Shown: positions 3,976 through 6,664 of the stretch, one piece after another
Layout of the letters: each line of letters opens with the position of its first letter
Numbering within the stretch: the first letter of the stretch is position 1
Source of the DNA: Pseudomonadota bacterium
Lineage (GTDB): Bacteria > Pseudomonadota > Alphaproteobacteria > UBA9655
DNA: 9,282 bases
Reading direction: 5' to 3'
NCBI GenBank assembly: GCA_021809225.1
Contig: JAKBAL010000051.1
Span: 1 to 9,282 of the forward strand
The notes under the pieces: generated by a model
Told to the model about the DNA's origin: nothing
Databases searched by the model: none
The model's input: only the letters and a program-made list of their open reading frames with translations
Translations under genes and position numbers: made by a program

Positions 3976-4572
3976 TCATACCATACGTCGTGACAAAAGT
4001 GCTGCTGAGAGGGTTCCTTCATCAAGATAATCAAGTTCACCTCCTACGGGAACGCCCCGAGCAAGGCTGGAAAAATGAGTAACCCCTACTTCTTTAATTC
4101 GTTCGATAAGGTAGTGGCTAGTTGTTTGGCCTTCAACGGTTGCATTGAGGGCGAAGATAATTTCTTTTACTTCTCTCGATTGGCAACGCTTTAAAAGGGA
4201 GGAAAGTCGCAAATCTTCTGGTCCCACACCATCAAGAGCAGAAAGCACCCCCCCCAAAACATGGTAATGACCTTTGTAAGAAGAAGTTCGCTCAAGGGCC
4301 CAAAGATCGGCAACGTTTTCAACCACGCAGATAAGAGAAGAATCACGACGAAAATCTTGGCAAAGAGCGCAAGGGTCTTGTGAATCAAGGTTACCACAGG
4401 TAGTGCAGTCTTTTACTTTCACCTCTACAATCTGAAGGGATTCCGTAAGGGCAGGCAAAGTTGTCGTACGATTTTGCAGCAAGTGCAAAGCCACCCGCTT
4501 TCCTGATCGCGGTCCTAAGCCGGGAAGCTTGGAAAGAAGCTGAATCAGGGTTTTAAGTTCATCACTGATCAT
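3976..4572 (-). CDS. recR: Recombination mediator protein RecR
   Basis: RecR works with RecF and RecO to load RecA at single-strand gaps. The 198-residue product matches the family length (about 200). It has the N-terminal helix-hairpin-helix (LSKLPGLGPRSGKRVALHLL, about 13-32), a Cys4 zinc finger (Cys56, 59, 68, 71), the Toprim domain from about 80 (ICVVENVADLWALE, then YHVLGG), and the conserved C-terminal VPVGGELDYLDEGTLSAAL. The frame can also start at TTG 4576-4578. I prefer ATG 4570-4572 because AGG lies eight bases upstream of it and too close to the TTG. It follows ybaB after about 170 bases, as in the common dnaX-ybaB-recR cluster, though that gap is longer than usual. It converges on the SH3-domain gene. 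Confidence 0.96.
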   Translation of the reverse strand: MISDELKTLIQLLSKLPGLGPRSGKRVALHLLQNRTTTLPALTESLQIVEVKVKDCTTCGNLDSQDPCALCQDFRRDSSLICVVENVADLWALERTSSYKGHYHVLGGVLSALDGVGPEDLRLSSLLKRCQSREVKEIIFALNATVEGQTTSHYLIERIKEVGVTHFSSLARGVPVGGELDYLDEGTLSAALLSRRMV

Positions 4573-4742
4573 AAACAAGGCCTGTAAAATGAGAGTTAAG
4601 AATCATTATTGTTTGTAAAGTAATCTAGAAAATCCCTCTTTACCACCTTCACTTTCGCAAAGATGGCATCAAAAGTGGGAAAACTGAGCCATAATCCAGG
4701 CAAAAGAACGTGAGTCTATAAATATTTTTCATAAGGGAGGCG
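4573..4742. other. Spacer between ybaB and recR
   Basis: This spacer of about 170 bases is unusually long for a dnaX-ybaB-recR operon. On the minus strand CACTTT...AAAGTG forms a 6-bp inverted repeat (about 4656-4677), with a competing small CTTTGCGAAAG hairpin. I find no strong promoter for recR and no clear terminator. On the + strand it carries GGAGG (4736-4740), placed seven bases before an ATG that opens a 50-codon ORF antisense to ybaB, described under findings. Confidence 0.5.
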
Positions 4743-5069
4743 CTAAAATGGGAGTTTCATCCCTCCTGGAAGTTTCAGGCCTCCTGTCACTTTACCCATC
4801 TCTTCGGACGCTAAATCTTCAGCTTTCGTTTGTGCATCACGAATGGCTGCAACTAAAAGATCCTCCAACACCTCTCCTTCTTCAGGATTCAAAAGCGTAA
4901 GATCAATTTTGATGCTCTGTACACTTCCTTTTCCATCAGCAGTAATTTTTACAAGCCCTCCTCCAGACGTGCCTTCAACCTCAAGAGTCGCTAGTTTTTC
5001 TTGGACTTCCGCCATTTTTGCTTGCATCTTTTGGGCTTGTTTCATCATTTCGCCAATATTACCAAACAT
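4743..5069 (-). CDS. ybaB: YbaB/EbfC family nucleoid-associated protein
   Basis: Small DNA-binding protein of the YbaB/EbfC family, thought to act as a dimer in nucleoid organisation and almost always found between dnaX and recR. The 108-residue length is typical. The N-terminus MFGNIGEMMKQAQKMQAKM and the following helix form the long amphipathic alpha arm. The middle carries the glycine-rich GTSGGGLVKITADGKG turn and the conserved IDLTLLNPEE. The C-terminal helix LVAAIRDAQTKAED is followed by a Gly/Met/Pro-rich tail. The start lies 15 bases after the tau-frame stop of dnaX, with AAGGA about 12 bases and GAGAG closer upstream. That tight spacing supports an operon and suits ribosomes finishing the tau frame, since the gamma-frame stop is about 390 bases further upstream. 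Confidence 0.95.
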   Translation of the reverse strand: MFGNIGEMMKQAQKMQAKMAEVQEKLATLEVEGTSGGGLVKITADGKGSVQSIKIDLTLLNPEEGEVLEDLLVAAIRDAQTKAEDLASEEMGKVTGGLKLPGGMKLPF

Positions 5070-5084: not shown

Positions 5085-6664
5085 TTATGTATCTTCAATC
5101 TCAACAAGGGATGTTCCAGGGAACGTTTGCATCATCATCTGCACAAGAGGATCTTGTAAGATAGACTGGCGACGCTCTTTAAGAGCTTGTTGAGCCTTTT
5201 CATAAAGAGTAGGGTGACCGATTTCATCGGAAATTGCAATCGTCCATACTTCATCTTTCTTGTTTTTTAAAAGATCCTGCAGTTGATGAGGCAGCGTTTT
5301 CGGTGCTTTTTGGGTAAGTCGTAACGTTACAGTCGAAGGAGCAAAATCCACAAGATGAACGTCATAAAAAAGGTGTGCATGTAAAATGCCTTCCCGTAGG
5401 TGGCTAACCCATTCGACGAGATCTTCAAAGGTAGAAAGTGACGTTTTATCCGTTGCTAAGACTTTTTTTTTAAGGAATTTTCCTCGGAATATCCTTCCAA
5501 AAGATCACTTAAAGAAGGAAGAGGAGAAAGATGAGTGAGGCGAATGATAATAACTTCCAAAGCTTTTTGAGGAGAGGGTGCGCGTTTGATTTCTTCAAAT
5601 CCTTTGGTAAGAATTTGCCAAGTCCGTGTTAGCGTAGGAATCGAAAGCGATTCGGCAAGCTCTAACCCTTTTTGCCGCTTTTCAGCTGTTAAAGTTATAT
5701 CTTCAGCCAGAGTCGAACTAATTTTTAGACAATGCAGCCAATGAGTCAAATCTAGAAGCTCTTCAATAAGGCGTAAGGGATCGGATCCTTCTTGATAAAA
5801 ATAGCGTAACTTTTCAAGAGCGGTGAGGATATTTCCTTCTGCTATTGTGTGAAATAAGTCTAAAAGAGCTCCTTGGTCAGAAAGTCCAAGCATTTGCCGA
5901 ACGTACGTAACCGTGACGTGAGACTTACCATAAGTAATTGCTTGATCCAGCAAAGAAAGCCCATCCCGTACAGACCCCTCTGCAGCTTTCGCAATAAGTC
6001 CTAGAGCTTCGTCCTCACAAACAACGTTTTCTTGGGCACATAGGGTTTTGAAATAGGTGACTAAAGTTGGGCTTTCAATGCGCTTGAGATCAAAACGCAC
6101 GCAGCGAGATAAAATTGTTGCGGGAACTTTATGAATTTCCGTTGTGGCGAAAATAAACTTTACATGAGGAGGAGGCTCTTCAAGCGTTTTTAGAAGGGCG
6201 TTAAACGCACTTTTAGACAGCATGTGGACTTCGTCAATGATATATATTTTAAATCGCGCTGAAACAGCCTTATATCGAGATGCTTCAATAATTTCTCGAA
6301 TATCATCCACACTTGTTCGACTGGCTGCATCAATTTCAATTACATCCATTGAACGATCTTGCGCAATGGCCGTACAAGATGAACAAGTCCCGCAAGGCTC
6401 AGGCGTTGAACCTGTTTCGCAATTGAGGGAGCGAGCAATAATTCGGGCAGTTGTCGTTTTGCCTGTTCCGCGAATGCCGGTTAGAATAAAAGCATGTCCT
6501 AGTCTGTTTCCTTCAATACCTCGTTTTAAGATTTCGACGAGAAAATCTTGGCCAATAACTTCACTGAGTTTTGTCGGACGATATTTGCGAGCGAGCACCC
6601 GATAACCTTCAAGAGAAGAAGGAGAAGAGTCTGCGGAGGAGACAAGTTTAAGAGCGGCTTCCAC
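5085..6664 (-). CDS. dnaX: DNA polymerase III subunit tau, encoded across a -1 frameshift at an A9 tract
   Basis: Tau is the clamp-loader subunit that also ties the polymerase cores and helicase together at the replication fork. The first 401 residues are shared with the gamma product. After the nine A residues at 5463-5471, reading shifts by -1 and continues as VLATDKTSLSTFEDLVEWV through to TAA at 5085-5087. This adds 125 residues for a total of about 526. The added part (with HLFYDVHLVDFAPSTVTLRL, KTLPHQLQDLL, EVWTIAISDEIGHPTLYEKA and a terminal PLVQMMMQTFPG) matches the C-terminal domain I know from alphaproteobacterial DnaX. It contains no stop codon, so it is under coding constraint. 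The stop is 15 bases from ybaB. Tau would therefore need ribosomal frameshifting, a slipped mRNA with 10 or 7 A residues, or correction of a miscounted homopolymer. Confidence 0.8.
5456..6664 (-). CDS. dnaX: DNA polymerase III subunit gamma (unslipped dnaX product)
   Basis: This is the clamp-loader ATPase in the uninterrupted frame, 402 residues. It holds Walker A GIRGTGKT (63-70), the zinc cysteines 82, 91, 94 and 97, Walker B DEVH (144-147), sensor 1 (IFATTEIHKVPATILSRC, with the SRC arginine finger at 186-188) and sensor 2 GSVRDGLSLLDQ (230-241). The collar domain ends at about 385. The frame then stops at TAG (5456-5458), one codon after the A tract, with ending LKKKS. E. coli gamma (431 residues) ends at an equivalent place, just past the collar domain. 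The start is GTG at 6662-6664: no ATG lies nearby, and AAGGA is about 11 bases upstream. It lies 23 bases downstream of the 4.5S RNA gene, so the two are probably co-transcribed. Confidence 0.85.
   Translation of the reverse strand: MEAALKLVSSADSSPSSLEGYRVLARKYRPTKLSEVIGQDFLVEILKRGIEGNRLGHAFILTGIRGTGKTTTARIIARSLNCETGSTPEPCGTCSSCTAIAQDRSMDVIEIDAASRTSVDDIREIIEASRYKAVSARFKIYIIDEVHMLSKSAFNALLKTLEEPPPHVKFIFATTEIHKVPATILSRCVRFDLKRIESPTLVTYFKTLCAQENVVCEDEALGLIAKAAEGSVRDGLSLLDQAITYGKSHVTVTYVRQMLGLSDQGALLDLFHTIAEGNILTALEKLRYFYQEGSDPLRLIEELLDLTHWLHCLKISSTLAEDITLTAEKRQKGLELAESLSIPTLTRTWQILTKGFEEIKRAPSPQKALEVIIIRLTHLSPLPSLSDLLEGYSEENSLKKKS
5462..5471 (-). promoter_or_regulatory. Slippery A9-G frameshift site in dnaX
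   Basis: On the minus strand nine A residues are followed by G. In the gamma frame the codons are TTA AAA AAA AAG TCT TAG, so the heptamer A AAA AAG sits in the register used by E. coli dnaX for -1 frameshifting. A tract of nine A residues is also the known transcriptional-slippage site of Thermus thermophilus dnaX. GAGGA (5481-5485), 12 bases upstream of the heptamer, resembles the Shine-Dalgarno-like stimulator of E. coli. I see no strong stem-loop just downstream. AAGGA and TCCTT (5492-5496 and 5472-5476) could pair immediately upstream. A sequencing error in the homopolymer cannot be excluded. Confidence 0.65.

Follow-up and report, generated by a model that had tools for sequence, protein, structure and literature searches.

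In E. coli dnaX, frame 0 encodes tau and gamma is made by ribosomal -1 frameshifting, and in Thermus thermophilus tau is likewise templated, with gamma arising from transcriptional slippage on a run of nine adenines (PMC1088944, PMC5009743). The reversed polarity, in which gamma is templated, has already been published. Antonov et al. (NAR, 2013; PMC3711429) describe two-ORF dnaX genes, 17 in number from 12 genera that include Chlorobium and Chloroherpeton, with a poly-A run of 7-10 As at the junction in 12 of the 17, and reversed cases are also covered by the 2016 review of Atkins et al. (PMC5009743). Furthermore, a poly-A frameshift in dnaX of the symbionts Blochmannia vafer and B. floridanus is presumed to be overcome by transcriptional slippage, which would restore tau (PMC3017870).

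The dnaX gene described here lies in a 9,282-nucleotide stretch of alphaproteobacterial DNA (the window), and shares features with each of these systems. Like the two-ORF genes of the 2013 study, it places gamma in frame 0, requires recoding for tau and has a poly-A junction. As in T. thermophilus, a run of about nine As stands at the end of the gamma module and the non-tau frames close nearby; unlike in that species, the templated product is not tau. With E. coli it has in common the heptamer A AAA AAG in register and a gamma that ends one codon after it, but the polarity is opposite, and the Shine-Dalgarno-like site and hairpin of E. coli are not conserved in the order to which the window belongs. 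The slippage presumed for Blochmannia is a further likeness, although the break there falls within the part specific to tau, further downstream than the gamma site. The first-pass annotation of this DNA had called the polarity reversed relative to E. coli and Thermus, which is correct for this locus, but the reversal itself is known; what is new is its conservation across an entire order, beside an order of opposite phase, whereas the 2013 study presents scattered genes. The 12 genera of that study may overlap the window's order. Among the titles listed from the open-access literature, we found none on this group apart from one paper matching Holosporales and dnaX together.

The dnaX junction in the window

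The frame-0 product gives 440.6 bits against TIGR02397 and exceeds the cut-offs of PF13177, PF22608 and PF12169 in a profile search, so by these matches frame 0 encodes a complete gamma consisting of AAA+ module, lid and collar. Of the 402 residues, number 389 is the last in the collar domain (PF12169), which places the break just past the collar, as had been claimed. On the minus strand the junction reads GAG GAA AAT TCC TTA AAA AAA AAG TCT TAG (Table 1), and the -1 frame continues for 125 codons after the A9 tract, which would yield a tau of about 526 residues. This frame matches PF12362 with an E-value of 5e-28 (98.1 bits). The split first noticed at the A9 tract is real. In a structural comparison, the top match of the tau part was E. 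coli tau domain V, with modest scores, and a sequence search of the PDB with the same part found no credible match.

Table 1 Features of the dnaX junction in the window
Feature	Position	Strand	Remark
dnaX frame 0 (gamma)	5456-6664	minus	402 aa from the called GTG start; contains the AAA+ module and the collar domain
A9 slippery tract	5463-5471	minus	
Heptamer A AAA AAG in gamma register	5462-5468	minus	possible ribosomal slip site
Frame-0 stop TAG	5456-5458	minus	one codon past A9
+1-frame stop TAA	5446-5448	minus	four codons past A9
-1 open frame with tau C-terminus	5085-5504	minus	
PF12362 tau C-terminal domain	5097-5435	minus	spans residues 13-125 of P0001; similar to E. coli tau domain V
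GAGGA, Shine-Dalgarno-like	5481-5485	minus	12 nt before heptamer

A lone A9 in a window of 9.3 kb is within chance (1 found against 1.54 expected; at least one A9 or T9 in 125 of 200 shuffles). Chance is excluded by comparison, because the split recurs in related genomes and protein relatives. The strand that carries dnaX has two further frames downstream of it that, from reading their translations, are ybaB/ebfC-like (4743-5069) and recR-like (3976-4578).

Taken together, the comparisons below make it probable that the locus is a conserved dnaX slippage switch of reversed polarity. In this switch, RNA polymerase would slip on the A9 or A10 run and produce transcripts of mixed length, of which those of templated length, or differing from it by multiples of three, would give gamma, those in the next phase would fuse the tau frame to the gamma module, and a third class would mostly meet a stop within 10 codons and give a gamma-like protein. 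Some tau may also come from ribosomes slipping by -1 on A AAA AAG. Gamma would thus be the templated product and the tau:gamma ratio would be set by slippage.

Conservation of the split and of the tau frame

The window's order (the order of G324) forms one clade with a support of 99 in a quick tree, a kind of tree in which deep forks are weak. Among the 17 genomes searched, 15 carry dnaX, with DnaX identities to the window of 60-99%, and two (G390 and G394) gave remote matches only. All 15 encode gamma in frame 0 and carry tau in the -1 frame, in agreement with the earlier reading of gamma as the frame-0 product and of tau as dependent on a frame transition. Their dnaX frames measure 398-429 codons from stop to stop, and in 14 of the 15 this frame is directly followed by a separate one of 128-217 codons that holds PF12362. 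In L102 (from G399) the tau frame extends only 64 codons after the tract and PF12362 was not found; this lineage may therefore have an altered tau or be able to dispense with it.

When the window is added to the dnaX loci of the 15 genomes, all 16 sequences show the junction pattern NNA AAA AAA AAG at the DNA level, and all hold the heptamer in register. The frame-0 stop follows one codon after the tract in 15 of them and three codons after it in L081, and the -1 frame is open for 64-186 codons past the tract in every case. Eight sequences have A9 and eight A10, a difference that reflects the preceding codon (GAA in eight; TTA, CTA, GTA and TCA in the rest) and not the phase.

The 70 best protein relatives (clusters P0002-P0071, of which P0002 is the window's own) tell a similar story: 63 end in KKK plus S, P or F, or in KKKPYL. 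Full-length tau is found in five (P0009, P0017, P0021, P0024 and P0037), all compared at the protein level and reading LKKKVL or LKKKAL at the site. The remaining two have other forms, P0069 ending in KKNS and P0065 being an in-frame fusion to a shortened tail; the latter has lost the KKK site and falls in the same part of the tree as L102, which shows a similar loss of the tau domain. P0102, named Ca. Bealeia paramacronuclearis and placed in Holosporales by NCBI, ends in SKKKS and matches G144 from its residue 6 on. The full-length clusters are nested within the split clade at two places, with P0017, P0021 and P0037 at one and P0009 and P0024, beside the split P0011, at the other, and the phase can therefore flip. 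Relatives with one continuous tau frame, named at the outset as the observation that would overturn the slippage reading, thus occur in 5 of the 70 best clusters and in none of the 15 genomes. These clusters, together with the reduced tau frame of L102, are among the points that speak against a conserved switch.

Homopolymers are error-prone, and the tau domain is reduced in L102 and P0065, both of which would fit a mistake in sequencing or a gene that has recently acquired a frameshift and is becoming a pseudogene. The same phase in 15 of 15 genomes and in 63 of the 70 best clusters makes such an explanation scarcely credible. Moreover, clusters P0003-P0006, which are 98-100% identical and come from other sources, also end in SLKKKS, so the split is not an error of one assembly. 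Similarly, dN/dS in the tau frame is 0.04 between the window and L093, 0.14 between the window and L094, and 0.15, 0.28 and 0.20 among pairs of L098, L099 and L101. The median is 0.21 (range 0.04-0.62) over 92 of 120 pairs, many of them near saturation, the other 28 having been dropped as saturated. The gamma part is more strongly constrained than the tau part, but values well below 1 indicate that the tau part too is under purifying selection. Error and decay were rejected on the basis of this conservation and selection; the first-pass annotation had argued against decay from the intact domain.

Alternatively, the gene could be truly split, with translation re-initiating past the stop codon of gamma to yield the tau domain as a second, separate protein; the databases hold 58 separately predicted PF12362 proteins, in a search that admits only lengths near the query's. 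However, the -1 frames of the 16 sequences have no start codon in common, and the first one in the window lies 37 codons past the tract, inside the PF12362 domain. A true split would also give the A-run and its register no reason to persist. Separate initiation was rejected for want of a common start and is very unlikely. Given a tau part that selection maintains and that lacks any conserved start codon of its own, tau must arise by frame transition, and on these sequence comparisons it is highly probable that one or the other slippage route, transcriptional or ribosomal, makes it. The finding also bears on annotation, since in the databases the tau part in this group appears as a hypothetical protein in its own right (P0122).

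Possible transcriptional and ribosomal routes to tau

Programmed -1 ribosomal frameshifting on A AAA AAG, an E. coli site in reverse, could make tau from mRNA of uniform length. The heptamer is in register and the direction constant in all 16 sequences, and by a rule given in PMC3711429 a single constant direction suggests ribosomal frameshifting; the reversed cases are also called ribosomal in the 2016 review (PMC5009743). The stimulators of the E. coli site, on the other hand, are not conserved. GAGGA occurs in only 2 of the 16 sequences, those of the window and of L093, its closest relative, and probably lies outside the device; L081, L083 and L102 match it weakly and in part. No conserved hairpin was found in the 60 nt downstream, where fold z scores across the 16 sequences lie around zero (control mean -0.05). 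The window itself scores +1.4, and the strongest folds are those of L095, which favours the ribosomal route (z -4.8, -22.5 kcal/mol), and L103 (z -2.3). Of the E. coli-like cassette proposed for the window, the in-register heptamer stands, and the cassette was rejected for the 16 sequences because its stimulators are not conserved.

The composition of the junction also favours transcription. All 16 sequences have an A immediately in front of the lysine codons, which A AAA AAG does not require, so the run is longer than the heptamer throughout. In these genes the frequency of A-ending codons is 0.26 for Leu, 0.70 for Glu and 0.13 each for Val and Ser. Among 69 protein clusters the residue before KKK is E in 35, L in 16, V in 12, S in 5 and A in 1; residues without A-ending codons never occur there (0 of 69), compared with 11% among the 16 preceding residues. 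The lineages behind these residue and base counts are related, and the counts carry no probability. Furthermore, a stop closes the third frame by codon 4 in 12 of 16 sequences (27% expected) and by codon 10 in 15 of 16 (50% expected), a closure that follows the Thermus pattern and speaks against the ribosomal route.

A drop in run frequency at nine is regarded as a sign of slippage-prone length (PMC1088944). We compared runs in coding sequence with synonymous shuffles, using crude ORFs (longest non-overlapping, at least 120 aa) from 400 kb of G144 and from 370 kb of five main-clade genomes (G392, G393, G395, G398 and G243), with dnaX excluded by motif. In G144, A runs of at least nine number 1 against 32.1 expected (sd 4.1), and A8 runs 37 against 49.5. 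The five main-clade genomes hold 10 against 22.1 (sd 5.0), a deficit that comes mainly from runs of at least ten (0 against 7.8). A9 alone is mildly low there (10 against 14.3, sd 4.2), and may therefore be only moderately slippery in these genomes. T runs of at least nine in coding sequence are also depleted (loci L151-L190), with 1 against 6.5 expected in G144 and 1 against 15.8 in the five genomes. The depletion of A and T runs of at least nine is thus strong in one genome, G144, and weaker in the others.

Transcriptional slippage of the Thermus kind is favoured over an E. coli-type cassette because the run exceeds the need of the heptamer, the third frame usually closes fast, no Shine-Dalgarno-like site or hairpin is conserved, and other genes contain fewer A or T runs of at least nine than expected. 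We consider it rather likely that transcription is the main route to tau, and programmed ribosomal frameshifting from uniform mRNA rather improbable, although, with A AAA AAG in register throughout, the ribosome may have a share.

Tract phase in other alphaproteobacterial orders

The opposite phase prevails in the order of G296. From the 37 genomes searched, 30 loci were taken (L191-L220), 28 of them usable, and 26 of these have A9 or A10 with tau in frame 0. The tract lies 334 to 346 positions past the P-loop (P-loop+334 to +346), compared with P-loop+331 to +347 for the order of the window, and this shared location is a further point in favour of transcription. In 24 of the 26, the two frames other than tau meet a stop within 10 codons. 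The run is followed by C in 21 of the 26, which means that most of them lack the E. coli heptamer; dnaX of this order looks like a plain Thermus-type gene. For the order of G024, which adjoins the window's order in the quick tree (38 genomes searched), 4 of 30 examined loci have a run of at least eight and none is split, and such a run occurs in one of two usable loci in the order of G156. In an earlier set of 98 usable loci outside the window's order, 10 have a run of at least eight, with tau as the frame-0 product, and in 7 of the 10 the two remaining frames meet a stop within 10 codons. Three of these loci recur in the order sets.

Candidate splits elsewhere in the class (385 genomes, among the matches listed) were discarded, as the short dnaX frames of G128, G111, G071, G203 and G227 run off contig ends, and so do 12 short PF12362 frames chosen among the matches listed. 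Searches of viral contigs found no relative, and plasmid searches gave distant matches only.

With this comparison, what had been seen in scattered genes becomes a trait of a whole order, for which nature supplies a counterpart of opposite phase, and it becomes testable whether the gamma:tau ratio matters and whether the recoding is transcriptional or ribosomal. We tentatively raise the possibility, which we regard as doubtful, that the phase itself is selected. The window's order would have fixed templated gamma, leaving tau limited by slippage, and the opposite-phase order would template tau at the same A9/A10 site, so that replicase stoichiometry would be a matter of tract phase, read by RNA polymerase. 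If so, there would perhaps be fewer polymerases per clamp loader in the window's order, and the clusters P0017, P0021 and P0037, along with P0009 and P0024, would be natural phase reversals inside the clade. The first three of these also have long low-complexity linkers of about 60-100 residues after the KKK site; the linkers have an unusual motif (RND.GGE) in common and give the impression of a repeat element that was inserted.
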